IMG/VR virus record: IMGVR_UViG_3300050175_000073
Coordinates: 1 to 36,486 of that record
Direction: 5' to 3' (one strand)
DNA from: a virus
Length of the DNA stretch: 36,486 bases
A program made the position numbers and the translations under genes. The notes under the pieces were generated by a model. That model saw nothing but the letters and a program-made list of their open reading frames with translations, made no database searches and was not told where the DNA came from. Of the stretch, positions 3,562 through 19,665 are shown piece after piece (position 1 is the stretch's first letter; every line of letters begins with the position of its first letter).

Positions 3562-3617
3562 GTCACTTTCCTTCTAGTGGGTTGAAGTAAATATTATATG
3601 AAAAAGCCGAGACTTTT

Positions 3618-3953
3618 TCAACGAACGATTGGCCTGTAGTAGCGCTCTACTATATACGGCAACGATCTATTTTCACCTGTGTTTATAAACACGTTTGGGG
3701 GAAGGTCGAGGAAGGCTTCTATTTTCTTATGGAACACTATTACGCTGCCAGCCTGGCGTGCAAGTTCAAACAGATCGGCTCTTGTGCCAGGTAGTCCGAT
3801 TAGTATCACGCTTTTATCTTGAACGTCCGGGAATATTTCGCCGCAATCAACAGGAATTAATTCGCAATCGACGTTCTGATTTACAATGCGGGCCGCAAGT
3901 TTGCTAGGCTCGCAGTCTCTTATGTAAAAGCAAACTTTATTCATGGAGTTCAC
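3618..3953 (-). CDS. degenerate DHH-phosphoesterase-like protein
   Basis: 111 residues; its GTG start overlaps the previous stop as GTGA. The layout follows the N-terminal half of phage/bacterial DHH proteins: a strand, then CELIPVDCGEIFPDVQDKSVILIGLPGTRADLFELAR and SVIVFHKKIEAF, then a bulge like the one before the SGA motif. The metal ligands normally in HxxxDG, DxS and DHH are replaced by IRDCEPS, IGL and FHK. I read this as a truncated, probably inactive relative of an oligonucleotide phosphoesterase. The family assignment rests on pattern only. Confidence 0.6.
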   Translation of the reverse strand: MNSMNKVCFYIRDCEPSKLAARIVNQNVDCELIPVDCGEIFPDVQDKSVILIGLPGTRADLFELARQAGSVIVFHKKIEAFLDLPPNVFINTGENRSLPYIVERYYRPIVR

Positions 3954-5002
3954 CGTACGGCAGATTTCGCCTTCTTGATGTATTCAGCAGCCAGTTCGTC
4001 CCTTGCCTTTTCAATGCCCTCGGGGCCGGACCCCTTCTTTTTTTCAGCAACTATCACTGACAATATCTCGGGAAACCGCGACGCGTCTGCGTCGGATATC
4101 TGTTCCAACTTAAGCGCTTTAGCCACTGCGGATGAATCAACGCCAGTCTCTGCCAGAATGGCATCTATGCGCTTGATTAGTTCCTCAGTTAGTGGCTCCT
4201 TATCCTTTGGTTGATCCTGGGTTACTGGCACCGTATCCTGGATTGTTGGCTCCTTAGCCTTTGGTTGATCCTGGGTTACTGGCACCGTATCCTCATCGCT
4301 TTGCTGGCCTAACAAGGCTGCTTTGTGGTCTTGGCATTTTTTATTTATTTTCTCCCGATCAGGTGTGCCCATAGAGTTAATCGAGTTGAGGTTGTCCCTG
4401 TACCAAGCCCTCAGTGCCTCAACGGTCTTTGCTCCCTTAATGTCTTCGGATAACTCTTGGCAACTCTTAACTGGGCCTGAAAATCTCTCAGGTTTCCCCT
4501 GAAGTTTTTCTGCTCCCATGTCCTCCAGGTCCTGCGAGAACACATCGGACAGCCCAGCAAGGCGAAGTGTAGCGTCAATCATGGCCGACTTAGCTGCCAT
4601 CTTAAGGCTCTTATTCATGTCGTTGTAATCGGTTTCTAGATCCCTGGCGCCTACGCCATAGGCCAAGGTCTTGCCTGCGGGATTTCTTAGCTCGCACGAC
4701 AGCACAACCCTCTCTAACGCTAATCCCGATAACGCGGCCGCTTCATATTCGTGGAGCGATGGAAAGTATGGCTGGACATTCATGACCAAGCAGACCTTCT
4801 CGGCGCCAGGCTTAAATAAGGATGGCTTTGTCCATTGGTTTATCTTCTTTAAGTACAAGGCGCCGAAATCTATCTTGTCTTCAAGATTATCGTTTATCCA
4901 CAAGAGAAGCCTATTGCGGTTCTTGCTGCGCCGGTCGATGGCCTCGGCGAATTCTTCGCACGGAACGTCTAGTGGGGACGGTTCAATAATTTCATCGTTC
5001 AT
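3950..5002 (-). CDS. KPGAEK-family protein, probably recombination/ssDNA-associated
   Basis: 350 residues. The motifs KPSLFKPGAEKVCLVM (59-74) and MNKSLKMAAKSAMIDATL...GLSDVFSQDLEDM (129-162) define a family common in phages and bacteria near recombination genes. An annealing or ssDNA-handling role is suspected but not proven. After residue 170 comes a linker with an 18-residue tandem duplication (TVPVTQDQPKAKEP and TVPVTQDQPKDKEP) and a helical C-terminal domain (about 270-350). It is the first gene behind the leftward promoter at 5038-5066, with a GGGAGA ribosome site, so it heads the early operon. Confidence 0.75.
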   Translation of the reverse strand: MNDEIIEPSPLDVPCEEFAEAIDRRSKNRNRLLLWINDNLEDKIDFGALYLKKINQWTKPSLFKPGAEKVCLVMNVQPYFPSLHEYEAAALSGLALERVVLSCELRNPAGKTLAYGVGARDLETDYNDMNKSLKMAAKSAMIDATLRLAGLSDVFSQDLEDMGAEKLQGKPERFSGPVKSCQELSEDIKGAKTVEALRAWYRDNLNSINSMGTPDREKINKKCQDHKAALLGQQSDEDTVPVTQDQPKAKEPTIQDTVPVTQDQPKDKEPLTEELIKRIDAILAETGVDSSAVAKALKLEQISDADASRFPEILSVIVAEKKKGSGPEGIEKARDELAAEYIKKAKSAVR

Positions 5003-5035
5003 TGCGGTCTCCCGTTTTGATTAAGTGGACAATTG

Positions 5036-5047
5036 ATAGTCTACTAT
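5036..5047. promoter_or_regulatory. operator-like inverted repeat over the early promoter
   Basis: ATAGT-CT-ACTAT is a perfect inverted repeat covering the -10 box of the leftward promoter. A bound regulator here would block it. TACTATT (5042-5048) occurs again twice upstream of the other HTH gene (13972, 13994), which suggests a shared regulator. Confidence 0.5.
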
Positions 5048-5066
5048 TATGGCTTGATTGTGTCAA
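5038..5066 (-). promoter_or_regulatory. leftward early promoter
   Basis: Reading leftward there is a perfect -35 TTGACA (5066-5061), a 17-base spacer, and a -10 TAGACT (5043-5038) matching 4 of 6 consensus bases. Transcription would start near 5031, about 30 bases before the ATG at 5002. The -35 lies in the inverted repeat CTTGA-ttgtg-TCAAG (5053-5067). Confidence 0.6.
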
Positions 5067-5067
5067 G

Positions 5068-5078
5068 TGCTATACAAT
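5068..5078 (+). promoter_or_regulatory. possible extended -10 promoter for the plus-strand HTH gene
   Basis: TGCTATACAAT is an extended -10 element facing the HTH gene at 5279, back-to-back with the leftward promoter. No good -35 is visible, which fits an extended -10 or a weak promoter. It would give a leader of about 200 bases containing the large palindrome at 5114-5145. Confidence 0.35.
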
Positions 5079-5113
5079 TATTAATTTACTCGGGTCTCGG
5101 CAGAGCAACTCCA

Positions 5114-5145
5114 AAATTTCCGATAATAACAATTATCAGAAATTT
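5114..5145. promoter_or_regulatory. 32-bp imperfect palindrome in the divergent control region
   Basis: Two 14-base arms (AAATTTCCGATAAT and ATTATCAGAAATTT) separated by 4 bases differ by one position from perfect symmetry. No T-run follows, so it is not an intrinsic terminator. It is likely a regulator-binding site or an RNA hairpin in the HTH gene leader. Confidence 0.5.
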
Positions 5146-5235
5146 CTGACCTTCATGAGCATTACTGATGGCCGGTCTTTCATTTACCACTCCAATTTAC
5201 CCTGTTTTGTGATAAAGTGGGCAAACTATAACACC

Positions 5236-5257
5236 AACAACATGTTGTGCACAATGT
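5236..5257. promoter_or_regulatory. overlapping palindromes just upstream of the plus-strand HTH gene
   Basis: ACAACATGTTGT is a 12-base perfect palindrome and overlaps TTGTGCACAA, a 10-base perfect palindrome. Both end about 25 bases before the ATG at 5279. The AGTGGGCAA element at 5216 also recurs as AGTGGACAATT (5024) and AGTGGGCAATT (14006). This arrangement suggests autoregulation by an HTH protein. Confidence 0.45.
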
Positions 5258-5278
5258 TTTACAAACAAAGGATTAAAT

Positions 5279-5476
5279 ATGGGAAAGTACGACAATAAAG
5301 TAGACCACAAGATGAGATCTCGGACCAGGAAATACAAAGAAATCTACTCGGTAAATGACCTTGCGGAGAAAAGTGGGGTTGGGACTAGGACTATTTACCA
5401 CTTCCTGGCTGGAAGGGGTATTAGGCTTGATAACTACTTGAAGATCAGAAAGGTTCTGGATTCAGTTCTAGACTAA
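5279..5476 (+). CDS. small HTH regulator, likely repressor of the early operon
   Basis: 65 residues. VNDLAEKSGVGTRTIYHFLAGRGIRLDNYLKI is a Cro/C1-type helix-turn-helix, and a basic N-terminus (KMRSRTRKYK) precedes it. It is the only plus-strand gene in the genome and is divergent from the recombination operon. An AAAGGA ribosome site lies 6 bases before ATG. It shares the GV-x-x-RTIY recognition-helix pattern and overall size with the HTH at 13708-13950. The position argues for a phage switch repressor. There is no dimerisation or peptidase domain, so LexA-type cleavage is unlikely. Confidence 0.8.
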   Translation: MGKYDNKVDHKMRSRTRKYKEIYSVNDLAEKSGVGTRTIYHFLAGRGIRLDNYLKIRKVLDSVLD

Positions 5477-5723
5477 GTTGGCGCCCACCCGGCCAGAGCA
5501 AGGAGTGGCGCCTAGCGAAGTGGGGGAGGCCGCCAACCAAATCGATACTATCATCAGTGCATTCCAACATCAACATAGCCTATTGACTTGTGGACAAGTC
5601 CTGCGGACCAGACCGGTTCCTGCGGACCATGTGGATAACTCTTCGAGTTACCCACATTACCGGTCTTCTTGCCCACAGGGTCAACAGGCTCAACCGTTCT
5701 TTCCACAATAAGAGGAAATAAGC
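5477..5723. other. convergent gene-free region with DnaA boxes and nested inverted repeats (origin candidate)
   Basis: No gene is seen. GTTGGCG (from 5478) pairs with CGCCAAC near 5530. GACTTGT-GG-ACAAGTC (5585-5600) is a perfect inverted repeat that resembles a DnaA box. CCTGCGGACCA occurs twice (5600-5610, 5619-5629). A consensus DnaA box TGTGGATAA (5630-5638) lies in a 13-base-arm hairpin (5629-5657, one mismatch, loop TTC). That hairpin is enclosed by GACCGGT (5611-5617) and ACCGGTC (5659-5665). A 20-base sequence at 5672-5691 recurs inverted at 7054-7073. This density suggests a replication origin. Confidence 0.55.
5672..5691 (+). repeat. 20-bp inverted repeat, left copy
   Basis: CCCACAGGGTCAACAGGCTC is exact, and its reverse complement lies at 7054-7073. 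The two copies point toward each other and enclose the three small genes at 5724-6786. Similarity ends abruptly on both sides at exactly 20 bases. Function is unknown. Confidence 0.85.
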
Positions 5724-6206
5724 CTATTTCGTACGATTGACGTCCATCTTGAATTCACCGCCCCGGCCAACGCTAACGGTCCCCATCCTGGCTGATGGCA
5801 CGCTAACCTCTATGCTAGATGATGGGCAGCTACGACCACGAGACCTTGTCTGCATGACAACCTTACCGCCAACGCCAAAGGTAATCTGCCTAACGGAAGC
5901 ATTTGCTGCCCTAACTTGAACCTGGGTAGATGGGCAGGGCTCGCAATACTTCTTTGTCGCACAGTTCTCTGGCTGACTTTTGATCATGTCCTCTATCTGC
6001 CCCACCATCGTCCCGCAAGTGCCAGCTCTATCGGTGTTACGCCTGCAATACTCGTCGAAATGATCCTGGCCATAAGCGTAGGCCTCCAAGAAGTCCACAT
6101 CGCCCTTGTCAAACTTCCCGTTGCGGTTAAAGTCCAAATCACCCCGGGTGTCGAATGCGTAGAACATTGCTAACACAAAAATCCAAGTAAAAATAATAAC
6201 CTTCAT
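5724..6206 (-). CDS. secreted protein with a single dockerin-like EF-hand loop
   Basis: 160 residues. The N-terminal MKVIIFTWIFVLAMFYAF is a signal peptide or anchor. DFNRNGKFDKGDVDFLEAY supplies a 12-residue calcium loop (D1, N3, N5, K7, D12) of dockerin type. A Cys-rich stretch follows (YCRR...TCGT...NCATKKYCEPCP), then two beta-hairpin-like repeats (ITFGVGGKVVM and VSVGRGGEFKM). It is a paralogue of the next gene upstream, with which it is TAATG-coupled. Export and disulfide bonding suggest an envelope role such as lysis or superinfection exclusion. No enzymatic motif is visible. A 6-bp-arm hairpin overlaps the stop codon. Confidence 0.75.
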   Translation of the reverse strand: MKVIIFTWIFVLAMFYAFDTRGDLDFNRNGKFDKGDVDFLEAYAYGQDHFDEYCRRNTDRAGTCGTMVGQIEDMIKSQPENCATKKYCEPCPSTQVQVRAANASVRQITFGVGGKVVMQTRSRGRSCPSSSIEVSVPSARMGTVSVGRGGEFKMDVNRTK

Positions 6207-7251: not shown

Positions 7252-7499
7252 GTGACAGATACGTGACATGGCGGGGTCACGGCGATGAGTCCAGTAAAAA
7301 CGCTGGCTACACTGTATATGTTACACCGTTACCCCTATTATTAAAAAAAGTATAAATATAGTAAAAGGGTATATGTAGCATTAAAAGTTTTGTTTGGCGT
7401 TTTCCGGTGTACATTGTCACACGGGCGTGTGAAGTAGTTGTTTGGAAAAGGAAAATTGGCGTGACAGGGGGGTGTGACACCGTGACACCCCGATGTCAC
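7252..7499. repeat. GTGACA/TGTCAC iterons around an AT-rich core
   Basis: GTGACA occurs at 7252, 7263, 7461, 7474 and 7482, and inverted as TGTCAC at 7415 and 7494 and as GTCAC at 7276. Hairpins TCACAC-gggc-GTGTGA (7417-7432) and GGGGTGT/ACACCCC (7469-7491) overlap them. Between the two clusters lies an AT-rich stretch (7335-7390) that could melt easily. This iteron-AT-iteron layout next to a helicase gene is typical of replication origins or multi-site operators. Confidence 0.6.
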
Positions 7500-7526
7500 A
7501 TTTCTGTGAACCGGGGTGTGCTTGGC

Positions 7527-7584
7527 GCACCCATGAGGAGTGGTAGCCCTCATGTTGCACCCATGAGGAGTGGTAGCCCTCATG
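7527..7584. repeat. two tandem 28-bp copies, each a hairpin
   Basis: Copies 7527-7554 and 7557-7584 are identical over 28 bases and are separated by TT. Each contains CATGAGG and CCTCATG arms. The right copy extends to a 10-bp perfect stem (ACCCATGAGG/CCTCATGGGT, 7559-7587) with a 9-base loop. They lie 63 bases after the helicase stop codon and lack a T-run, so they could be processing, stability or protein-binding hairpins. Confidence 0.7.
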
Positions 7585-7649
7585 GGTGGCCATTCTAGGA
7601 AGGTATCAAGTTCTTTGAATGGTAAAGTGCGAAGTGCGCAGTTAGCTTA

Positions 7650-8984
7650 TCAATATGCGCCGTCCTTGTCAAATCTTTCAGCAGGATGTGGCGCCTTCCA
7701 GTCTTTATCCTTCCGCCTCCACCCCCTGCCTCGTCTATTCTCAATGATCCGAGTCCCTGGTATATTGTATTTCTTGGTAAGCATCCTTTTATATTCAAAG
7801 CCAAGCTTGATCATTATGCTGGATATCCTTGCATACTTAAGGTTATTCATATCCCTTATTTCTATATCAAGGTGGTCTGTTATCTCCTTAACCAGTATAT
7901 GAAACTTATCCTCAACAAGGTGCTCTATGTCATCCGCCCAAGCATCGTCTATTTCTGAGCCCCTCTGGCGCTCTATGGCGAGTTTTTCCTGGCGGGGTGG
8001 TAGGTAGATATTAGTCTTCTGATTAAAGCCGTCTGTGGTGCGTTCTAGCGACCTTTCTATGGCCTCGGCGAATAACTGGTCCTTGATTTCTCCTAAAGCA
8101 TCCACTTCGATATTATCGACCCTGATAGGCAGGTATCTTCTGTTGCCAGTCTCATCGCGCAGGAAACTGTCGTTATTGGTTGTCCCGACCAGTATGCAGC
8201 GCCGGGGATAAGACTTATACATGCGGTCATAGGGCATCCTGATATTGTCATGCGTGCCGGTTATGAATGACTTGGACTCGCACGAGTCGCTGCGCAGGAA
8301 TTGCTTAAGCTCGGCTATCTCTATGCACCACCGCCCTTGTATCTCGCGTAAAGATTCCTTGTCGAATTTCGTGCCTGTCATCTCAGCATAGAAGGGCTCG
8401 AATAACGTCCTCATAGCGCTTGTCTTGCGGCACCCTTGCGGCCCTATGAGTATGGTCATGTAATCGAACTGATTTCCTGGTCTAAGCGCTCTATTGACGG
8501 CACCGAACATCATCATCAATCCAACCATAGAAGAGTATTCCTCATCCTTGGCGCCGAAGTATTTAGCGAACATTGACTCTAGGCGCTTCTCCCCGTCCCA
8601 CTCCAGAGGTTTAAGGTAGTCGGCAAGTGGGTCATACGGGTTTAGCATGGCCACTGCTTCGATTACCGCATGCACCTTTTTATCGTTTGGCTCAGATATT
8701 ATATAGTGCGACAAAGGAGTTTCCGTAAGCCAGGAGCACGCCATAGTTATGTGTGCGTCTTCCCATGGGTAGGTGTTACTCTTGAAGGGCAAAGGTTCCA
8801 GGTTCTGGACTATACCAGTCATGACGTTGTACTTTATCTTCCCCTTTAAACGCTTGTCGTTAAGGAAGATCTTCATGAGGTTGTGGTAGTCTGATTTTAA
8901 GACTTCGCCCTTGGTGTAGTGTAAATTTTCAGTCCATGTGTCGTTGTTTTCTATGTTTGTTTGATTTTCAGTGGTATAATTCAT
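7650..8984 (-). CDS. VirE/SF3-type helicase, probable replication initiator
   Basis: 444 residues of the VirE (PF05272-like) P-loop family. Walker A is GPQGCRKTS (181-189), a Walker-B-like element is WCIEIAEL (219-226), motif C is ILVGTTNN (264-271), and an arginine-finger stretch is GNRRYLPI (280-287). The N-terminal domain of about 130 residues has no primase motifs visible, and the C-terminus has a winged-helix feel (RISSIMIKLGFEYKR). It is the only replication enzyme seen, so it likely unwinds or loads at the origin while the host supplies primase and polymerase. The adjacent iteron region is the obvious target. Confidence 0.85.
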   Translation of the reverse strand: MNYTTENQTNIENNDTWTENLHYTKGEVLKSDYHNLMKIFLNDKRLKGKIKYNVMTGIVQNLEPLPFKSNTYPWEDAHITMACSWLTETPLSHYIISEPNDKKVHAVIEAVAMLNPYDPLADYLKPLEWDGEKRLESMFAKYFGAKDEEYSSMVGLMMMFGAVNRALRPGNQFDYMTILIGPQGCRKTSAMRTLFEPFYAEMTGTKFDKESLREIQGRWCIEIAELKQFLRSDSCESKSFITGTHDNIRMPYDRMYKSYPRRCILVGTTNNDSFLRDETGNRRYLPIRVDNIEVDALGEIKDQLFAEAIERSLERTTDGFNQKTNIYLPPRQEKLAIERQRGSEIDDAWADDIEHLVEDKFHILVKEITDHLDIEIRDMNNLKYARISSIMIKLGFEYKRMLTKKYNIPGTRIIENRRGRGWRRKDKDWKAPHPAERFDKDGAY

Positions 8985-9236
8985 TTTGATCCCTTTAGGG
9001 TTGAATGTTTATGCAATGTGGCCCCATGACAGTTGATGCGTTTATGTTCTTCTCTTGGGTAGGTTTATTGGTGTTGACCTCCTTTCACTCCCCTCCCCGG
9101 AAGTGGTGAGAAGCGCTAGATGATAGCCTAGCGCTTCTCTTTTTTCCTTTGCAAGTCGTACACCCTAGTTAAAGTGATGCGCGTTGCCTTGCCGCAGACC
9201 ATCGCACGGGGTATTCCTTGTCCGTGGCCAAAATAG
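8985..9236. other. intergenic region between the LRV operon and the helicase gene
   Basis: No gene is seen. It carries the strong hairpin at 9108-9139. Reading leftward there is an orphan ribosome-site-like AAAGGAGGT near 9080 with no start codon behind it. Apart from the AAAGGG ribosome site of the helicase gene just before 8984, I recognise no clear promoter. Confidence 0.5.
9108..9145 (+). terminator. intrinsic terminator, plus-strand orientation
   Basis: GAGAAGCGCTAG (9108-9119) and CTAGCGCTTCTC (9128-9139) form a perfect 12-bp stem with an 8-base loop, followed by six T (9140-9145). On the minus strand it has a leading A-run but no T-run, so it stops rightward transcripts better than the leftward LRV transcript. 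Confidence 0.7.
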
Positions 9237-9989
9237 CTAGCTTTTCGGGAGGTGTATTTTGGTTCTCCGCCGTACGCTGTTTCGCCCCCCACCCTTATTC
9301 CGATTATATTTGACGCGCCATCGCACTGGGAATTCTTTATCTGAAGCCAAAATGTCTATGGTCTCAGGAAGCGTGCTTTTATTGTCCGCCACGGCCCATC
9401 GAACCATGTAATCTTGATCTTTGCCCAAGATTGATAGGATATCCTGGGGAGTATTTTGATTGCCCGCCACACGCCGTCGCACTTCGTGGTTTTGATCTGC
9501 GGCCATAACAGTTAGCGTCTCCCGGGGCGTATTTGGATTGCCCGCCACAACCCATCGCACAGATTCGTCTTGATCTGCGGCTAGAACAGTTAGCGCTTTC
9601 TGAGGCGTATTTGGGTCGTCCGCGACAATCCCTCGCACTTCGTGGCTTTGGTCTGCGGCCAAAACAGTTAGTGTCTCCTGGGGAGTATTTGGATTGCCCG
9701 CCACAGCACGTCGCACTTCTCGGCTTTTGTCTGCGGCCAGAACAGTTAGCGTCTCCTGGGGAGTATTTGGATTGCCCGCCACAGACCATCGCACTTCGTG
9801 GTCTTGATTTGCGGCCAGAACAGTTAGCGTCTCCTGGGGCGTACTTGGATTGCCCGCCACAGCCCATTGCACAGATTCGTCTTGATCTGCGGCTAGAACA
9901 GTTAGCGTCTCCTGGGGCGTACTTGGATTGCCAGCCAAGTTCCGTTGAACTTCGATTTTTTGGTCTGAATCATCGCATCCCGTATTCAT
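9237..9989 (-). CDS. LRV-repeat protein 3 (8 repeats)
   Basis: 250 residues: a 20-residue cap starting MNTGCDDSDQ, eight 26-residue leucine-rich-repeat-variant units (nucleotides 9306-9929), and a basic tail (NRNKGGGRNSVRRRTKIHLPKS region). LRV units form a right-handed superhelix of alternating alpha and 3-10 helices in the Azotobacter structure; no general function is known. The last two repeats diverge most (QDILSILGKDQDY and LPETIDILASDKEF) and act as the C-cap. Repeat 8 resembles repeat 10 of LRV2. The start is TAATG-coupled to LRV2. The complete N-cap suggests this may be closest to the ancestral copy (inference). Confidence 0.85.
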   Translation of the reverse strand: MNTGCDDSDQKIEVQRNLAGNPSTPQETLTVLAADQDESVQWAVAGNPSTPQETLTVLAANQDHEVRWSVAGNPNTPQETLTVLAADKSREVRRAVAGNPNTPQETLTVLAADQSHEVRGIVADDPNTPQKALTVLAADQDESVRWVVAGNPNTPRETLTVMAADQNHEVRRRVAGNQNTPQDILSILGKDQDYMVRWAVADNKSTLPETIDILASDKEFPVRWRVKYNRNKGGGRNSVRRRTKIHLPKS

Positions 9990-12900
9990 TAGCTAGTTTC
10001 CTTTGGTTTGTTATTCAGGTTCTCCGACGCACCGCATCGCACGGATTCGTCTTCGTCCTCGACCAAGATGGCTAGGGCCTGCGAAGGCGTACTTGGATTG
10101 CGCGCCACGGTCCGTCGCACTTTGCGGTCTTGATCTGCGGCCAGAACAGTTAGCGCCTCCTGGGGCGTATTTGCATTTCCCGCCACAGCACATCGCACTT
10201 CGTGGTCTTGATCTGTAGCCAGAACAGTTAGCGCTTCCTGGGGCGTATTTTGATTGCCGGCCACAGCCCATCGCACCACAAAGATTTGATCTGCGGCTAG
10301 AACAGTTAGCGCCTCCTGGGGCGTATTTTGATTGCCCGCCACGGTCCGTCGCACTTTGTGGTCTTGATTTGCGGCCAGAACAGTTAGCGTCTCCTGGGGC
10401 GTACTTGGATTTTCCGCCACGGCACGTCGCACTTCGCGGCTTTGGTCTGCGGCCAAAACAGTTAGTGTCTCCTGGGGAGTATTTGGGTCGTCCGCGACAG
10501 CCCATCGCACTTCGTGGTATTGATCTGCGGCCATAACAGTTAGCGTCTCCTGGGGAGTATTTGGATTGCGCGCCACGGCACGTCGCACTTCGCGGCTTTG
10601 GTCTGCGGCCAAAACAGTTAGCGCTTCCTGGGGCGTACTTGGATTGCGCGCCACACGCCGTCGCACTTCGCGGTTTTGATCTGCGGCTAGAACAGTTAGC
10701 GTCTCCTGAAGCGTATTTGGATTGCCCGCCACAGCCCATCGCACTTCGTGGTCTTGATCTGTGGCCAGAACAGTTAGCGTCTCCCGGGGCGTATTTGGAT
10801 TGCGCGCCACGGTCCGTCGCACTTCTCGGCTTTTGTCTGCGGCCAGAACAGTTAGCGTCTCCTGGGGCGTACTTGGATTGCCCGCCACAGCACATCGCAC
10901 TTCGTGGTCTTGATTTGCGGCCATAACAGTTAGCGTCTCCTGAAGCGTACTTGGATTGCTCGCCACAGCCCATCGCACCACAAAGATTTGGTCTGTAGCC
11001 AGAACAGTTAGCGTCTCCTGGGGCGTATTTTGATTGCCCGCCACGGTCCGTCGCACTTTGCGGTCTTGATCTGCGGCCATAACAGTTAGCGTCTCCCGGG
11101 GCGTACTTGGGTCGTACGCGACAACCCATCGCACTTCGTGGTTTCGGTCTGAAGCCAAAACAAATAGGGTTTCCGGAGGCGTGCTTTTATTGCCCGCCAC
11201 GGCACGTCGCACTTCGTGGCTTTTGTCTGCGGCCAAAACAGTTAGCGTCTCCTGGGGCGTACTTGGATTGCCCGCCATACGCCGTCGCACTTCGAGGTTT
11301 TGATCTGCGGCCATAACAGTTAGTGTCTCCTGGGGAGTATTTGGATTGCCCGCCACAGACCATCGCACTTCGTGGATTTGGTCTGCGGCCAGAACAGTTA
11401 GGGTATGCGGGTGCGTGTTAGGGTTTCCCACCAAACGCCGTCGCACTTCGTGGCTTTGGTCTGCGGCCAAAACAGTTAGCGTCTCCCGGGGCGTATTTGG
11501 ATTGCCCGCCACACGCCGTCGCACTTCAAGGTCTTGATCTGCGGCCAGAACAGTTAGCGTCTCCCGGGGCGTATTTGGATTGCTCGCCACAGCCCATCGC
11601 ACTTCGCGGTTTTGATCTGCGGCTAGAACAGTTAGCGTCTCCTGAAGCGTATTTGGATTGCCCGCCACAGACCATCGTACTTCGTGGTCTTGATCTGTGG
11701 CCATAACAGTTAGCGCTTTCTGGGGCGTATTTGGATTGCCCGCCACAACCCATCGTACAGATTCGTCTTGATCTGCGGCTAGAACAGTTAGCGCTTCCTG
11801 AGGCGTATTTGGGTCGTCCGCGACAATCCCTCGCACTTCGAGGCTTTGGTCTGCGGCCAAAACAGTTAGTGTCTCCTGGGGCGTACTTGGGTCGTACGCG
11901 ACAACCCCTCGCACTTCGCATCCCGTATTCATTAGCTAGTTTCCTTTGGTTTGTTATTCGGGTTCTCCGACGCACCGCATCGCACGGATTCGTCTTCGTC
12001 CTCGACCAAGATGGCTAGGGCCTGCGAAGGCGTATTTTGATTGCGCGCCACAGCCCATCGCACCACAAAGATTTGATCTGCGGACAAAACAGTTAGCGTC
12101 TCCCGGGGCGTATTTGGATTGTCCGCCACACGCCGTCGCACTTCGTGGTTTTGATCTGCGGCCATAACAGTTAGCGCCTCCCGGGGCGTATTTAAATTGC
12201 TCGCCACAGCCCATCGCACTTCGTAGTCTTGATCTGCGGCCAAAATGGCTAGTGTCCCTGGAGGCGTATTCGGGTTGCCCGCCACAGACCATCGCACCAC
12301 AAAGATTTGGTCTGCGGCTAGAACAGTTAGCGCCTCCTGGGGCGTATTTGGATTGTCCGCCACGGCACGTCGCACTTCGTGGATTTTGTCTGCGGCCATA
12401 ACAGTTAGCGTCTCCCGGGGCGTATTTTGATTGCTCGCCACGGCACGTCGCACTTCGAGGTTTTGATCTGCGGCCATAACAGTTAGTGTCTCCTGGGGAG
12501 TATTTTGATTGCCCGCCACAGCCCATCGCACTTCGTGGTCTTGATTTGCGGCCAAAACAGTTAGCGCTTCCTGGGGCGTACTTGGATTGCCCGCCACAAC
12601 CCATCGTACAGATTCGTCTTGATCTGCGGCTAGAACAGTTAGCGCCTCCTGGGGCGTATTTGGGTCGTCCGCGACAACCCTTCGCACTTCGTGGTCTTGA
12701 TCTGTGGCCAAAACAGTTAGCGCTTCCTGGGGCGTACTTGGATTGCCCGCCACACACCATCGCACTTCGTGGTCTTGATCTGCGGCCATAACAGTTAGCG
12801 TCTCCTGAAGCGTACTTGGATTGCTCGCCACAGCCCATCGCACTTCGTGGTCTTGATCTGTGGCCAAAACAGTTAGCGCTTTCTGGGGCGTACTTGGATT

Positions 12901-13524
12901 GCCCGCCACACACCATCGCACTTCGTGGTCTTGATCTGCGGCCAAAACAGTTAGCGCTTCCTGGGGCGTATTTTGATTGCCCGCCACACGCCGTCGCACT
13001 TTGCGGTCTTGATCTGCGGCCATAACAGTTAGCGTCTCCCGGGGCGTACTTGGATTGCGCGCCACAGCCCATTGCACAGATTCGTCTTGATCTGCGGCTA
13101 GAACAGTTAGCGTCTCCTGGGGCGTGTTTGGGTCGTCCGCGACAACCCCTCGCACTTCGTGGTCTTGATCTGTGGCCAGAACAGTTAGCGCCTCCCGGGG
13201 CGTATTTAAATTGCTCGCCACAGACCATCGCACTTCGTGGTCTTGATCTGCGGCCAGAACAGTTAGCGTCTCCCGGGGCGTATTTGGATTGCGCGCCACG
13301 GCATTTCGCACTTCGCGGTTTTTGTTTGCGGCCAGAACAGTTAGCGCTTTCTGGGGCGTATTTGGATTGCCCGCCACAGCCAATTGCACCACAAAGGCTT
13401 GGTCTGCGGCTAGAACAGTTAGCGTTTCCTGGGGCGTATTTGGATTGCGCGCCACACGCCGTCGCACTTTGCGGTCTTGATCTGCGGCCAAAACAGTTAG
13501 CGTCTCCTGGGGCGTATCTGGATT
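9306..13524 (-). repeat. 52 LRV repeats of 78 bp in three arrays
   Basis: The units total 20 + 24 + 8, all exactly 78 bp and in frame, interrupted only by the caps at the gene junctions (9930-10021 and 11894-11964). Variation concentrates at unit residues 17-19 (DHE 12 times, DES 7, DRK, IFV and SRE 4 each, and others) and 22-23. Residue 22 is Trp in 24 units and Arg in 19. Neighbouring units are as different as distant ones, and multi-unit blocks recur, so the arrays appear shuffled by recombination. Confidence 0.9.
9989..11932 (-). CDS. LRV-repeat protein 2 (24 repeats)
   Basis: 647 residues: MNTGCEVRGVVAY, then 24 LRV units of 26 residues (10022-11893), then NLNNKPKETS. Compared with LRV3, the N-cap after MNTGC is missing and the sequence jumps into the end of a repeat (EVRGVVAY), as expected from a deletion by recombination. 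The last unit (SQALAILVEDEDESVRCGASE) is shared with LRV1. No signal peptide, membrane span or catalytic motif is visible, so a cytoplasmic or virion solenoid that binds protein or nucleic acid is inferred. It overlaps LRV1 and LRV3 as TAATG on both sides, so the three are made together. Confidence 0.85.
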   Translation of the reverse strand: MNTGCEVRGVVAYDPSTPQETLTVLAADQSLEVRGIVADDPNTPQEALTVLAADQDESVRWVVAGNPNTPQKALTVMATDQDHEVRWSVAGNPNTLQETLTVLAADQNREVRWAVASNPNTPRETLTVLAADQDLEVRRRVAGNPNTPRETLTVLAADQSHEVRRRLVGNPNTHPHTLTVLAADQIHEVRWSVAGNPNTPQETLTVMAADQNLEVRRRMAGNPSTPQETLTVLAADKSHEVRRAVAGNKSTPPETLFVLASDRNHEVRWVVAYDPSTPRETLTVMAADQDRKVRRTVAGNQNTPQETLTVLATDQIFVVRWAVASNPSTLQETLTVMAANQDHEVRCAVAGNPSTPQETLTVLAADKSREVRRTVARNPNTPRETLTVLATDQDHEVRWAVAGNPNTLQETLTVLAADQNREVRRRVARNPSTPQEALTVLAADQSREVRRAVARNPNTPQETLTVMAADQYHEVRWAVADDPNTPQETLTVLAADQSREVRRAVAENPSTPQETLTVLAANQDHKVRRTVAGNQNTPQEALTVLAADQIFVVRWAVAGNQNTPQEALTVLATDQDHEVRCAVAGNANTPQEALTVLAADQDRKVRRTVARNPSTPSQALAILVEDEDESVRCGASENLNNKPKETS

Positions 13525-13548
13525 TTCCGCTGCGCTTTGATTATTCAT
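11932..13548 (-). CDS. LRV-repeat protein 1 (20 repeats), first gene of the LRV operon
   Basis: 538 residues: MNNQSAAE, 20 LRV units of 26 residues (11965-13524), then NPNNKPKETS. Each unit begins N-P-N-T-P-Q-E-T-L-T-V-L and continues A-A-D-Q with variable residues, then V-R and a second variable pair before V-A. The length adds up exactly (8+520+10), with no broken unit. An AAAAGGAGA ribosome site lies 9-10 bases upstream of ATG. Two palindromes and a terminator-like hairpin precede it, and a small HTH gene lies upstream, so expression is probably regulated. Function unknown; modular binding is inferred. Confidence 0.85.
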   Translation of the reverse strand: MNNQSAAENPDTPQETLTVLAADQDRKVRRRVARNPNTPQETLTVLAADQAFVVQLAVAGNPNTPQKALTVLAANKNREVRNAVARNPNTPRETLTVLAADQDHEVRWSVASNLNTPREALTVLATDQDHEVRGVVADDPNTPQETLTVLAADQDESVQWAVARNPSTPRETLTVMAADQDRKVRRRVAGNQNTPQEALTVLAADQDHEVRWCVAGNPSTPQKALTVLATDQDHEVRWAVASNPSTLQETLTVMAADQDHEVRWCVAGNPSTPQEALTVLATDQDHEVRRVVADDPNTPQEALTVLAADQDESVRWVVAGNPSTPQEALTVLAANQDHEVRWAVAGNQNTPQETLTVMAADQNLEVRRAVASNQNTPRETLTVMAADKIHEVRRAVADNPNTPQEALTVLAADQIFVVRWSVAGNPNTPPGTLAILAADQDYEVRWAVASNLNTPREALTVMAADQNHEVRRRVADNPNTPRETLTVLSADQIFVVRWAVARNQNTPSQALAILVEDEDESVRCGASENPNNKPKETS

Positions 13549-13569
13549 TAGTTCATTCTCCTTTTAGTC

Positions 13570-13621
13570 TGTATTAATACATCTTGCATTATTCTCGACT
13601 TATTCATACAATGTGCATTGT
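13570..13621. promoter_or_regulatory. two operator-like palindromes in the LRV leader
   Basis: TGTATTAATACA (13570-13581) is a perfect 12-base palindrome just before the LRV1 ribosome site. ACAATG-tg-CATTGT (13608-13621) is a perfect 6-base-arm inverted repeat 26 bases further upstream. Their spacing in a leader right behind an HTH gene suggests binding sites for a regulator. I see no clear -35/-10 pair to name a promoter. Confidence 0.5.
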
Positions 13622-13641
13622 CATCTTGTTTGTTGTAACAT
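13621..13641 (-). CDS. possible 6-residue leader peptide (MLQQTR)
   Basis: ATG at 13641 with AAAAGGAG placed five bases upstream opens a six-codon frame ending in TGA at 13621, next to the palindrome at 13608. The ribosome site is as strong as that of LRV1. It could be a translated leader or a decoy site; short length makes chance occurrence possible. Confidence 0.3.
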   Translation of the reverse strand: MLQQTR

Positions 13642-13664
13642 GACGACTCCTTTTAGTGGCTTTC

Positions 13665-13709
13665 GCCTGCGGGACTCCTCACGGTCCTACAGCCCGCAGG
13701 CTTTTTTTT
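13665..13709 (+). terminator. terminator-like hairpin, plus-strand orientation
   Basis: GCCTGCGGG (13665-13673) pairs with CCCGCAGGC (13693-13701) and is followed by eight T (13702-13709). The T-run overlaps the stop codon of the HTH gene on the other strand. A GGAC/GTCC inner stem can also form. For leftward transcripts there is no T-run after the stem, so here it would be a leader hairpin of the LRV mRNA. Confidence 0.6.
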
Positions 13710-13950
13710 ATGTTCCCTCCATATCCATGGTAAGCAATGTGTACTTAAGCTTTAGCAGCTTGTCAGCGCTCAATCCGTTACCGCCGTAATTGTTTTCAAT
13801 GACGTTGTAGATGGTCCTGCGCGATACCCCGGATAGCTGCGATACCTTACTTAGCTCTCTTCGTCTCTGGCGATGAAGTACCCCTTCCCTTACCCTGTTG
13901 ATAGCTATATCGGAGAATAGCCTAGCCGCCTCCACTTCTCTCTCATACAT
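13708..13950 (-). CDS. small HTH regulator upstream of the LRV operon
   Basis: 80 residues. LSKVSQLSGVSRRTIYNVIENNYGGNGLSADKLLKLKYTL is a Cro/C1-type helix-turn-helix with a helical N-terminus (REVEAARLFSDIAINRVREG). The recognition helix SRRTIY parallels TRTIY in the plus-strand HTH at 5279, and both end in a K-L-K/I-R-K-type helix, so they may be distant paralogues. The ribosome site is AGAGGG, seven bases before ATG. Its own upstream region has an ACTATT-ga-AATAGT inverted repeat, suggesting autoregulation. It likely controls the LRV operon that follows (inference). Confidence 0.8.
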   Translation of the reverse strand: MYEREVEAARLFSDIAINRVREGVLHRQRRRELSKVSQLSGVSRRTIYNVIENNYGGNGLSADKLLKLKYTLLTMDMEGT

Positions 13951-13972
13951 TGTAATGCCCTCTGCTAAAACT

Positions 13973-14008
13973 ACTATTGTACAGCATTGGGCTTACTATT
14001 GAAATAGT
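13973..14008. promoter_or_regulatory. operator/promoter region of the second HTH gene
   Basis: ACTATT-ga-AATAGT (13995-14008) is a perfect inverted repeat, and a second TACTATT lies at 13972. On the minus strand a TACAAT -10 with a poor -35 (TTTCAA, spacer 17) overlaps the repeat. AGTGGGCAATT (14006-14016) recurs as AGTGGACAATT at 5024-5034 in the other HTH control region, which supports a common regulator. Confidence 0.45.
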
Positions 14009-14991: not shown

Positions 14992-17900
14992 TTAAGTCTC
15001 CAGAACAGAGTAGGCGACCCTTACCTTGAATTGGCCGCCGTGCGAGCCGTTATTTATTTCTAGTTTCATCTTTTTACTGAATGGGAAATGGTCTAAGACA
15101 ATGTCGCCGACAGAGTTATCAAGCCTAAAGGTGATATTACCGCACAAGGAATAATACCTAAGGTTCCCAGACACTAGATTAACGATCCAGGTTTTCGCAG
15201 GGTCATCGTCTACGGTATATCGAACGGTGACCGTTTTAGCTACACCAACCTGATTGTCTACAGTAATAATGAAAAGTTGCAGAACCCCGGGTTTATTTTC
15301 TATATCCACCACCGGTATGTAATTGCCTTGAGAGTCATCTATCTGCTTGTAGTGCAAGTTAAGGTTTGCCCCAGATGTAGATAACCCGTCCACAAAATGA
15401 TCGTAGAGACTAGCCTTTGCGGTGGTGATGATAGGCTGACCAAAACCTTTTATCGGCGCCGGCCGGGACACGGGGAACTCTTTTATTATTTCGTTTTCCC
15501 AGTACACGAAACGTTGATACGTTTTATCTGGGTCATCTCGGTAAACCTCTATTTTTATACTGTTGGACCAGGGTATGTAGTCTTGCCAAACCCCCACTAT
15601 ATCGTTTGGCGCCGGACCTAAATCTGGCAAGATGGCGCCTATTATGTTCAATCCAACTTCATTTAGTAATGCTGTGTTTTGATCTAGTACATAGTCGAAA
15701 GATATAACGCCCTTTCCGTCAATGCTCATTTTTATTCGTATAGCCGTTCTTCTTGTCAGGGTTACCCTAACCCTAGACGCTAGCAAGCCAAATCCTATGA
15801 AGCCAGGGCTTCCACTCCTTTCAAAAGCGGTAACCCAGCCCTCTGTCGTGGTATCGAAACTGAAATATTTCCATGTCCCCGTGTAAAGGCCTGACACGTA
15901 GGTATAGGGTTTATACTCGTGCGGTATGACAATTACGTCCGTAGGCTTTTGTAATTCACTTGTTGGCACCCTGGGAGTTTCAAGAAAAAAAGATCCTTTT
16001 GGTTCTTTTATTGACACATCTTCGTAAGATGCCTGGCTGGATTCATCGCCCTCCTTGTCTATTCCCTTGACAAAATAACGTGCAGATCCGGCCGGAACAT
16101 CAACGTCGTAATAAAAGATTTGACCATTCACTGGCCGGTTCGTCTCTAGTGGCACGTCTTCATCTAGTTGCGTGGCAGACTCCCAAGTGTCTGTTGAGCT
16201 GCCTCGGCGCACTCTATACCCGTAGTCTGTGTGGGCGAGAATGTTTGTCCAGCTAACACCCACCCGGTCCCAGTACTCAGTTATGGATATGCTGCCAACA
16301 TTTGCAGGAGGCTGCACCGAGCCATTTAGGGATATGGAGCTAGAGGATCCATTGGCGCTCTGAGTACCTACCGTGCTTATGGAGAACACGGTGCAAAGGA
16401 ACGGGCTGTCGAGATCAAGCGGTCCGGTGCGTATCTTGTGCTCTACACCTGCGCCAATGTGTTGCAGCGCGAGGTTCTCCCAAACCTTTGTCCCGCTATT
16501 GCTGGTGACCTGTATTCTGTAAGAAGAGCTATATGGGTGGTTAACGCCAACCCAACTTATCTCTATGCAAGAGCTTCTTGAGCCAGATTTCCCCTTCCAT
16601 ACCTCCTCCGAAGTGTTCACTGACGTGGGCGGGTCGATGACTGCTGGAGATGGTAGATTGGGGTTGCCCCTAGGGATTGGCGTGTGACTTGTGTCCGCGT
16701 ATTCCCGTGCATCATATACCCGGCCAATAATTTTTGGTAAATACATTCCCTCGATTTCTACAAGATCGTTGCTTAATATCCTCACTACATAGGTGCCGCT
16801 CATGTTGGGAATGTTACTGATGGATGCCAAATCGCCACGCTCAATCATCATTTGGGAATCCTTTCCCACCCAAGAGAAATTAAAGGTAGAGTAAAGGCCG
16901 GACCTATATATCTGCACTGCTTCCCTATAAGCTTGCTTTGCGCTTTGAATCCAGGGCATGCTGAACTGGGAGACGAGACGCGGTTCTGTACCGTTCTTTA
17001 CTGCAGTGGTTTCGTATACCTCCACGTCACTGGCCCATGGTATTACAGTGGTGTTTGTGTATAAGACACGGATCACGTTGGGCGCATTAACTTTTATTAT
17101 AGGTGCCGCTCTAAACGACCCTTTGCGTATATCCCTCTCCATGTCCAGGGAGAAGCTAGTGCCGTCCGTCCATGCGCGACGAGGCTTTATTTTTTCTTTA
17201 TCAACCCTAAGAAACGCCCCGGCGGCAGAGGTCATGGTCACGATCCAATCGCGCAATGGGCGCTGCGACTCCATGACCATGCCTGACCTTTTACGCTTCT
17301 CACCGTCCACGTTTTGGTCGCAGAAGTTAACCAAGGCACCGAAGTTAGCGTCGTCAGTGTCCCACTTTGGCCCAAACTTGCCAGACCGAAAGAACTCGTA
17401 TAGGTGGACGCCAGGGTTATCATTGGACACCATGGATCCATCGGCCGGGTTCCGGCACTTCAGACCATCGATATTGGCAGTAAAGTTCAAACTATCCGGC
17501 ATGACATCGTATTCAATACGAATCACGCTATACGCTATCCCAACGGACTCGCCGTCTAGTGTCATGACCAGCTTGTCATCAAACCCTGAAATTGCAGCAG
17601 CAAGCCATGGGTCAACAAGCTGCGTCGTGGTCCCTGTGTATGAGTTTATCTCGATGCCGGTTTCCACAACCTTATCATTGAGCCTGATCTCATTGATCGC
17701 GCCAATCTCTCCAAGGCACCAGCGAATGTGCACTAACCATTTATCGTCATGAGTGCCTATCCAGATTATTTCTCCACCGATACTGACATTACCAAAGCAG
17801 ATCTTAAGTGGCCTGCTATCGGCCGACACTGTTACCTGGGTTTCAACTGCCTGCACAGTAGTATTGTTTAGCGTATCCCGGCCTGCGTACCCGTCGCTTG

Positions 17901-19665
17901 TGCGGGTGACCCTGGGACTGGTGGGGCGCCCGAACTTAACGGGTGGTGTATAGGGCTGCCCCTTTTTGAAGCTGCCTGGGTATTGATCGTAAATTGACCC
18001 GCCGGTTGGCGCTAATGGATCGTAAGGCCACAGATAATCGGGGATTCCGTCCGGGTTGTCCGGGCTTATCGGGTATTCGGGGATGTCAGCCATGTCTCTA
18101 TCATCTCGCGGGTTAGCGGGTCTGTACTTGCCATATGTTTCTGGGTATTGGTCCCAGATATAACCGCCCGTTGGGGCCAGTGGATCATAGGGCCAAAGGT
18201 AATCCGGGATTCCTTCGGGCTTTTCCAGAGCATCATCGGGGTATCCAGGTAAATCAGAGTCCTTTTTTATAGGCGCAAGCTTATGCCCCTCTTCCGTCTT
18301 CCTAAACTCCATCCATGACCTGGCTGCTTCCTCCATTCTGCGTTTCTTTTCTTCAGTGGCCCTATAGATCTTCTCTTTTTCTTCGGTAGGTAGTGCGGCT
18401 ATCTCTAGTTCCTTATCAACAGCCTTTTTCCTTCGCGCACGCTCTCTTTCCTTGGCCTCTTCCTGTGCAACCTTCTTCCTGTCCTCTTCCCTATTTCGAG
18501 CTTCGATAATCGCCCTTTGCTTTGGCCCTAACTTTGCCATCTCTTCTTCTTGTCGCTTTTTCTCGGCCGCCGCAGCATCAGCCTCCGCCTTTTTCCTTGC
18601 ATCGACAAATGGTTTGGCAGCTTCCTCCATTCCGCGTTGCTTTTCTTCAGTGATCTTATTGATCCTGTCTCTTTCGGCGGGGGGTAGCGCGGCTATCTCC
18701 TTCTCCTTCGCAAGTGCCTTTTTCCTGCGCGCCTCCTCTCTTTCCTTGGCCTCTTCTTGTGCAGCCTTCTTCCTGGCCTCTTCCTTCGCTTGAGCTTCAA
18801 GAAGCGCCTTTTGATGTGACCTTAGCCTTGCGCTCTCTTCTTCTTTTCGTTTCTTCTCGGCCGCCTCAGCATCTGCCTTTTTCTTAGCCTCGGCAAATGA
18901 CCTGGCAGCCGACTCCATGCGCTTGCGGGCCTGTTCCGCCCTGATGGCAGCAAGCCTTTGCTCCTCTGCGGATTTGGCCTTCAGGGCGGCCTCTGCCGCC
19001 AGCGCCTTTTTCCTGCGCGCCTCCTCTCTGGCACGCGCTTCCGCCTGGGCCTTCTGTTTGGCGGCCTTCTCCCGGGCCTTGGCCTGTTCCAGTGCCTTGG
19101 CCTGGGCTGCTTGTTGCCTGGCTATCTCTTGTAGTTTTTCCTTGCGTTTAGCCTCGGCCACGGAAGCCCGCCAGTGTGCGGCAGCTTCCTCTTGCACCCG
19201 GATTGATTCTGCAAGAGCCTCGGCATAAGCCTTGCGCTCCGCCTCCGCCTTGGCTGCAATCGCCTTTTCGGCCGCAATAGCTCTGGCCCGCCTCTCTTGT
19301 TCCCTGGCCTTTGCGGCAGCCTGAGCGGCCGCCTTCCTGGCCTCTTGCTCTGCCTTCTGCTTGGCTAGCGCCGACGCTTGCGATGCTGCTTTAGCGGCTC
19401 TTTCGCGCTCCGCAATCTCAGCCTGCCGAGCGGCCTCCTTTGCCTTTGCCGCGTAACGTGCCTTGTTAGCCCTCTCAGCCTCTTCCGCCTCCAGTCTCTG
19501 CTGCTGCCTGTAGGTGAGCTTCGGGGCTCTTGACTGAGACTGTGAGGGAGGCCTGTAGCGATATCTGGGGTGGGAACTTATGCTTGATCTGGAATAACGA
19601 GACGCGCCAGACGTCGGGTTAACATTTGTCTCGGGGTCATCCGAGTAATAGGGTATGTCAGCCAC
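14992..19665 (-). CDS. J-like tail-tip protein with a long Ala/Lys/Glu helix
   Basis: 1557 residues; GTG start overlaps the previous stop by 8 bases. Residues about 45-465 are an A/K/E/R-rich, stop-free helical region with a ~96-residue tandem duplication (shared EIAALP, ARRKKA and RMEEAA motifs), unusual for a J protein. A Pro/Tyr-rich linker repeats DYLWPYDPLAPTGG twice. Residues about 600-1000 match the lambda J/tip-attachment core (ETQVTVSADSRPL, GGEIIWIG, and GVHLYEFFRSGKFG followed by NFCDQNVDG). Two fibronectin-III-like domains lie at about 1010-1220, and two RP-x-P beta modules end the protein. It forms the central tail spike and host contact. Confidence 0.85.
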   Translation of the reverse strand: MADIPYYSDDPETNVNPTSGASRYSRSSISSHPRYRYRPPSQSQSRAPKLTYRQQQRLEAEEAERANKARYAAKAKEAARQAEIAERERAAKAASQASALAKQKAEQEARKAAAQAAAKAREQERRARAIAAEKAIAAKAEAERKAYAEALAESIRVQEEAAAHWRASVAEAKRKEKLQEIARQQAAQAKALEQAKAREKAAKQKAQAEARAREEARRKKALAAEAALKAKSAEEQRLAAIRAEQARKRMESAARSFAEAKKKADAEAAEKKRKEEESARLRSHQKALLEAQAKEEARKKAAQEEAKEREEARRKKALAKEKEIAALPPAERDRINKITEEKQRGMEEAAKPFVDARKKAEADAAAAEKKRQEEEMAKLGPKQRAIIEARNREEDRKKVAQEEAKERERARRKKAVDKELEIAALPTEEKEKIYRATEEKKRRMEEAARSWMEFRKTEEGHKLAPIKKDSDLPGYPDDALEKPEGIPDYLWPYDPLAPTGGYIWDQYPETYGKYRPANPRDDRDMADIPEYPISPDNPDGIPDYLWPYDPLAPTGGSIYDQYPGSFKKGQPYTPPVKFGRPTSPRVTRTSDGYAGRDTLNNTTVQAVETQVTVSADSRPLKICFGNVSIGGEIIWIGTHDDKWLVHIRWCLGEIGAINEIRLNDKVVETGIEINSYTGTTTQLVDPWLAAAISGFDDKLVMTLDGESVGIAYSVIRIEYDVMPDSLNFTANIDGLKCRNPADGSMVSNDNPGVHLYEFFRSGKFGPKWDTDDANFGALVNFCDQNVDGEKRKRSGMVMESQRPLRDWIVTMTSAAGAFLRVDKEKIKPRRAWTDGTSFSLDMERDIRKGSFRAAPIIKVNAPNVIRVLYTNTTVIPWASDVEVYETTAVKNGTEPRLVSQFSMPWIQSAKQAYREAVQIYRSGLYSTFNFSWVGKDSQMMIERGDLASISNIPNMSGTYVVRILSNDLVEIEGMYLPKIIGRVYDAREYADTSHTPIPRGNPNLPSPAVIDPPTSVNTSEEVWKGKSGSRSSCIEISWVGVNHPYSSSYRIQVTSNSGTKVWENLALQHIGAGVEHKIRTGPLDLDSPFLCTVFSISTVGTQSANGSSSSISLNGSVQPPANVGSISITEYWDRVGVSWTNILAHTDYGYRVRRGSSTDTWESATQLDEDVPLETNRPVNGQIFYYDVDVPAGSARYFVKGIDKEGDESSQASYEDVSIKEPKGSFFLETPRVPTSELQKPTDVIVIPHEYKPYTYVSGLYTGTWKYFSFDTTTEGWVTAFERSGSPGFIGFGLLASRVRVTLTRRTAIRIKMSIDGKGVISFDYVLDQNTALLNEVGLNIIGAILPDLGPAPNDIVGVWQDYIPWSNSIKIEVYRDDPDKTYQRFVYWENEIIKEFPVSRPAPIKGFGQPIITTAKASLYDHFVDGLSTSGANLNLHYKQIDDSQGNYIPVVDIENKPGVLQLFIITVDNQVGVAKTVTVRYTVDDDPAKTWIVNLVSGNLRYYSLCGNITFRLDNSVGDIVLDHFPFSKKMKLEINNGSHGGQFKVRVAYSVLET

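Follow-up and report, generated by a model that had tools for sequence, protein, structure and literature searches.

Coupled phage genes built of leucine rich repeat variant units as candidate members of a diversifying family of binding proteins

The leucine rich repeat variant (LRV) genes of uncultured phages are rather likely to encode a fast-diversifying family of repeat proteins that bind other proteins inside the cell and that would block host defence factors or rival phages. Three of these genes lie in the stretch of DNA analysed here (the window), an IMG/VR virus record taken in full (36,486 bases). In the mechanism that we propose, their products would be cytoplasmic HEAT-like alpha-solenoids built of LRV units, with no enzyme domain, and the stacked units would set the variable residues of helix B into a long binding strip, placed on the concave face by analogy with alphaRep. 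The strip would bind proteins, with host defence factors or proteins from rival phages as the likeliest targets, and would neutralise them by occupying them. Point changes at six codons would give rise to new specificities, as would short-tract recombination among units, gain or loss of repeats, and gene duplication. For a solenoid inside the cell whose surface changes under selection and which has no enzyme domain, the best reading is a partner-blocking binder.

Nearly all window genes are on the minus strand. The head module is Mu-like, with portal, head and capsid families matched, and the terminase is 43% identical to that of Microcystis phage Mae-JY22; tail genes, a VapE helicase/primase and an SbcC-like ATPase are also encoded. 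The LRV operon and its surroundings comprise the following features.

7650..8984, minus strand: VapE-type DNA helicase/primase, downstream neighbour of the LRV genes
9108..9139, no strand assigned: hairpin with a 12-bp stem, terminator-like on the plus strand, downstream of the LRV operon
9187..9264, minus strand: 53rd LRV unit, NQNTPPEKLAILATDKEYPVRWSAAR, out of frame with LRV3, beyond the G6 run
9237..9989, minus strand: LRV3, a 20-aa N-cap, 8 LRV units and a 22-aa non-repeat tail, 250 aa
9285..9290, minus strand: G6 run at the LRV3 end, where the LRV reading frame is lost
9442..13524, minus strand: tandem array with a period of 78 bp and 52.3 copies (Tandem Repeats Finder)
9989..11932, minus strand: LRV2, N-cap MNTGCEVRGVVAY, 24 LRV units and C-cap NLNNKPKETS, 647 aa
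11932..13548, minus strand: LRV1, N-cap MNNQSAAE, 20 LRV units of 26 aa and C-cap NPNNKPKETS, 538 aa
13549..13707, minus strand: region upstream of the LRV operon, with an AAGGAG Shine-Dalgarno before LRV1
13708..13950, minus strand: small protein with a weak HTH_23 match, upstream neighbour of the LRV genes

A preliminary description of this DNA had claimed three coupled genes made almost wholly of LRV repeats, 52 units in all, and that count stands. Splitting into 26-residue units gives exactly 20, 24 and 8 in-register units for LRV1, LRV2 and LRV3, and all three proteins match the Pfam LRV family (PF01816; E = 2.7e-103, 1.5e-130 and 8.3e-44, respectively), with bit scores for the three window proteins of 417, 332 and 145 against a curated cut-off of 21.6. 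Both couplings, LRV1/LRV2 and LRV2/LRV3, are 1-base stop-start overlaps (TAATG), and a purine-rich Shine-Dalgarno-like site precedes every start (AAGGAG for LRV1, AAAGGA for LRV2 and LRV3). The further claim that units and short caps account for all of LRV1 and LRV2 and for most of LRV3 is accurate; LRV3 closes with its non-repeat tail, with the 53rd unit out of frame, and its end is a frameshift or a sequencing error. Tandem Repeats Finder reports a single array (77% matches, score 4181), and the long ORFs in its other frames are by-products of the 78-nt period. The longest exact repeat within the array is 74 nt, so the array is not a recent block duplication. LRV1 and LRV2 end in almost identical C-caps followed by almost identical start regions, and the LRV genes therefore probably arose by duplication of whole capped units. 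Upstream of LRV1, a weak sigma-70-like site at 13617-13588 was not above chance, and a hairpin following the HTH gene within 13549..13707 was read by eye. Within 8001-14000, the G+C content rises to 54-57% over the LRV array, from about 45-49% in the flanking segments.

The predicted structure places these proteins in the LRV/HEAT class, as the preliminary description had done, with agreement among sequence profiles, AlphaFold2 and structure comparison that included 1lrv. The AlphaFold2 model of LRV1 (pLDDT 95.1) is a HEAT-like alpha-solenoid with a regular two-helix repeat, in which helix A occupies unit positions 6-12 and helix B positions 18-26. Comparison by VIA-align put alphaRep complexes at the top (Z 18.1, 17.7 and 16.1; range 18.1-14.1) and gave Z 15.6 to 1lrv, with an rmsd of 4.6 over 224 aligned residues; Foldseek alone ranked PP2A scaffold HEAT proteins first. 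Each repeat thus has two stacked short helices in a 1lrv-like solenoid according to AlphaFold2 and VIA-align, and the fold is the same in the model of a 233-aa LRV protein of another phage (pLDDT 94.0, pTM 0.86; Z 14.6 to 1lrv, Z 16.9 to alphaRep). LRV repeats alternate alpha and 3-10 helices, two types that the secondary-structure output used here counts together. At E <= 0.01, 1lrv was also the sole PDB sequence match to LRV2 (3.9e-14). The Azotobacter LRV protein (PF01816/1lrv) shares both repeat sequence and fold with the window proteins; it is a single protein, whereas the window has a coupled gene family that is phage-borne, with longer and more uniform arrays and hypervariability at six fixed positions. 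The Azotobacter protein has Fe-S character, with a cysteine cluster for a 4Fe-4S centre; the three window proteins contain only 3, 4 and 1 cysteines, which gives no indication of such character.

Variation within the units is concentrated at a small set of positions. Across the window's 48 core units, variability is highest at six of them (17, 18, 19, 22, 23 and 26), while L9, V20, V24 and A25 are almost fixed, and the packing residues (L9, L12, V20, R21, V24, A25) are nearly fixed as a set. In the model, positions 18, 19, 22, 23 and 26 lie on a single face of helix B and 17 is the helix N-cap residue, in keeping with the earlier expectation that the solenoid would expose one variable surface. 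The six-residue combinations are distinct in 45 of the 52 window units, on nearly constant scaffold DNA. By simple counting within the one array, a crude measure as units are non-independent and multiple hits uncorrected, pN at the six positions is 0.41 versus a pS of 0.20 and a pN of 0.10 at the other positions, and the scaffold codons have a purifying pattern (pN/pS 0.48). Mutual information with z > 4 occurs mostly between neighbouring positions (17-18-19, 22-23, and 26 with position 1 of the next unit), which we read as short-tract shuffling among units, and weaker linkage is present among positions 6, 8, 14 and 16. Codons 17, 23 and 26 vary mainly at bases 1-2, and codons 19 and 22 at base 3 too.

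In the phage contigs G064, G053, G070 and G071 the same six positions rank as the most variable; these contigs add only two lineages to the window, G064 and G053 being relatives and G070 and G071 likewise. With a looser unit definition the top six were unchanged in three of the four contigs, and G053 has 16 for 18. Across the four, pN at the six positions is 1.8-2.6 times pS elsewhere. Bacterial LRV arrays vary at several of the six positions too, and part of the hypervariability pattern is therefore a general LRV property; in Deinococcus psychrotolerans, the six sites have a pN lower than the pS of the remaining positions (ratio 0.71).

Turnover of the LRV genes is documented in other phages only, because the searches brought up no close relative of the window phage. 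Protein scans of viral contigs with LRV2 and VapE confirmed none, and a 23-base array motif gave no match in the search for window relatives. A window-like LRV motif had zero matches in genome contigs and one in viral contigs, the latter in a contig that was already part of the set. Terminase relatives of the window phage reach at most 47% identity, and the 49 of them that were searched are all without LRV. Diverse LRV stretches, once aligned, differed too much to serve for a pattern scan. In the G070/G071 pair, the 31 shared non-LRV genes have a length-weighted amino-acid identity of 98.0%, with DNA identities of 96.4% over 16.0 kb and 96.7% over 6.4 kb, and the best LRV matches of the six LRV genes of G071 are 55-77% identical. 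Structural genes of G064 and G053 are mostly 93-100% identical and all 70 shared non-LRV genes average 89.5%, with LRV genes at 51 to 87%. In four syntenic LRV pairs of G064 and G053, 54 of 84 residues at the six positions differ (64%), versus 48 of 280 other residues (17%; Fisher p 7e-16), and one syntenic pair differs in length by two whole units. We take this pattern of LRV differences in G064/G053 and G070/G071 as the strongest sign of selection for a changing surface, and the two pairs would be suited to testing the drivers of turnover.

The preliminary description named no other phage operon of such arrays. Coupled LRV genes are not peculiar to the window, and they are present in numerous uncultured phages. 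Searched with a degenerate DNA motif of the LRV unit, IMG/VR gave 101 stretches, and LRV was above the cut-off in all 50 of the IMG/VR records scanned among the motif matches, so that at least 50 viral contigs carry it. The earlier suggestion that viral databases be searched for adjacent LRV genes proved fruitful: same-strand neighbours occur in 28 of 101 viral versus 3 of 118 cellular stretches, a comparison for which the Fisher value is only indicative as some viral stretches share a contig. Many phage LRV genes are paired by stop-start overlap, with the shared caps MNKLEQARDPNTPP ... NPNTPHYIKKYLKIQ. About 23 LRV genes were counted in G064 (179,526 bases), a tailed phage with terminase, tail lysozymes and tail fibre, and about 20 in G053 (125,003 bases); gene calls in contigs other than the window are mechanical ORFs, and these counts hinge on a loose pattern. 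Neighbours of LRV genes in other phages have mixed functions, mostly replication, metabolism and unknown (gp32, UvsY, PhoH, helicase, ClpS), and no recurrent partner gene was found among 88 neighbour proteins from viral LRV loci. The lack of a conserved neighbour suggests that an LRV gene works by itself or together with the twin to which it is coupled.

In design the phage proteins resemble alphaRep, the best structural match to both LRV models in VIA-align. The alphaRep library is randomised at repeat positions 18, 19, 22, 23, 26 and 30 (PMC3754942), and its crystal structures have targets bound on the hypervariable concave face (PMC6362204). The spacing of the variable second-helix positions (18-19, 22-23, 26) is equal in alphaRep and phage LRV; the identical numbering comes partly from the choice of unit start, and the spacing is the true agreement. 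The alphaRep repeat is longer and has its sixth variable position at 30, which the 26-aa LRV repeat lacks, and alphaRep is artificial whereas phage LRV is natural, allows cysteine and would owe its diversity to evolution. The idea of a modular binder, put forward in the preliminary description, fits this fold and these variable positions well. The window proteins are acidic (pI 4.78, 5.23 and 5.65), and in other phages Tyr, Trp, Ser, Gly and Cys are frequent among the variable residues; together these properties point to protein partners, and turnover of the arms-race kind suggests host defence proteins or rival phages as targets. It is possible, although we advance it tentatively, that phages carry a fast-evolving alphaRep-like binder repertoire, with as many as about twenty genes in a genome and frequent coupled pairs, each gene disabling a different host-defence or rival-phage protein, as a viral counterpart of a repeat-based immune-receptor repertoire. 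If so, phages evolve general-purpose binders by the design engineered into alphaRep and deploy them as a rapidly changing set, which would amount to a new class of anti-defence or inter-phage weapon and a natural library of binder scaffolds.

Other explanations were weighed against a partner-blocking binder. The LRV proteins might be scaffolds or regulators of the phage's own proteins, in assembly, transcription or lysogeny control, with a surface that drifts neutrally. Repeat solenoids frequently act as scaffolds and an HTH gene adjoins the operon, yet own partners would hold the surface constant, and it differs where the phage is otherwise about 98% identical, with pN at the six sites exceeding pS elsewhere; we regard this explanation as unlikely. 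A structural or adhesive role, in which virion, tail or receptor-binding proteins carry a repeat shaft, is quite unlikely. It would suit the place of the LRV genes after the tail region in transcription order and one G064 LRV gene that directly precedes a tail-fibre gene, but most LRV genes lie elsewhere, among replication, metabolism and unknown genes, the window operon sits between the HTH gene and the VapE helicase, and the LRV proteins matched no virion family.

Sequence-reading nucleic-acid binders, with one base or base step per unit as in TALE, PPR or PUF proteins, would likewise be long and modular, each unit having few variable residues, and HEAT-like folds include DNA-binding enzymes such as AlkD. 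The preliminary description had likened the arrays to TALE and PPR, a likeness that two observations do not support. The window proteins have net charges at pH 7 of -26, -18 and -4, LRV proteins of other phages are mostly acidic, though a few are basic, and a basic nucleic-acid-binding surface like that of TALE and PPR is thus not found in the window. TALE and PPR repeats have 33-35 aa and two code residues, whereas LRV repeats have 26 aa and six variable positions, which are rich in acidic residues in the window and in aromatic or small ones elsewhere (aromatic share 10% in the window versus 17-27% in other phages). A TALE/PPR code was rejected on charge and residue pattern, and nucleic-acid reading in general is very unlikely. 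Selfish or neutral repeat expansion kept in frame by chance, or an artefact of assembly, is highly improbable: although the source contig comes from an uncultured virus, a 52-unit tandem array is risky to assemble from a metagenome and a frameshift is present at the LRV3 end, the 52 units are stop-free with intact frames, three Shine-Dalgarno-like sites, 1-nt couplings, purifying scaffold codons and no exact repeat above 74 nt, and the same architecture recurs in unrelated contigs.

Two further candidates were rejected. Hypermutation by a diversity-generating retroelement would require a reverse transcriptase, and the window has none, nor do 24 of the 25 other LRV phage records searched, several of which are fragments. 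The exception, G054 (L356, IMGVR_UViG_3300044678_001935), has 54 LRV matches and, next to its reverse transcriptase, C-type-lectin-like reading frames with YWSSTEAS in common; this locus looks like a diversity-generating retroelement, and its reverse transcriptase was dismissed as an LRV diversifier because it adjoins the C-type-lectin-like gene instead. Membership in a known defence family was also set aside, the PADLOC matches of the LRV proteins being weak repeat-type matches.

The LRV fold family is old and phage members are present in databases; we found no description of the phage use proposed here and, in the open-access papers searched, none that joins leucine rich repeat variant or LRV repeat with phage. 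Deposited phage proteins include those of uncultured Caudovirales annotated 'Leucine rich repeat variant' (e.g., A0A6J7WYX0, 547 aa) and of Moorella phage MTATph1, which was alone among 50,697 phage records in matching either LRV query and has merely a short LRV stretch in one 327-aa gene. A 2024 review of alpha-solenoids states that HEAT-repeat proteins have yet to be annotated in viruses and covers poxvirus ankyrin-repeat gene families (PMC11514114), and a paper on conflict systems mentions HEAT repeats and not LRV (PMC7159879). The poxvirus families are likewise multi-copy, divergent viral repeat-protein genes with duplication, but differ in fold and hosts, and targets are known for some. 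Long LRV arrays, some of them neighbouring, also occur on plasmids of D. psychrotolerans, Synechocystis (pSYSA) and Allomeiothermus, which are cellular replicons. The D. psychrotolerans plasmid (L094) has two neighbouring giant LRV genes at 2505-5939 and 7335-11222 (1145 and 1296 aa). On pSYSA (L090) an LRV gene adjoins a DUF262 gene, with a type I-D CRISPR-Cas locus close by, and on Allomeiothermus pMESIL01 (L100) one lies beside a VWA-like and MoxR pair.

Several features of the window lie outside the LRV operon. The 1557-aa ORF at 14992-19665, without a match in Pfam or PHROG families, contains a 294-bp tandem duplication of 1.9 copies at 18321-18878. A perfect 30-bp repeat of 1.9 copies occupies 7527-7584, at the 5' end of the minus-strand ORF 7341-7583 directly downstream of VapE. 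The SbcC/RecF-like AAA ATPase at 2383-3561 belongs to phrog_1499 (unknown function) and is weakly similar to several defence-system ATPases.
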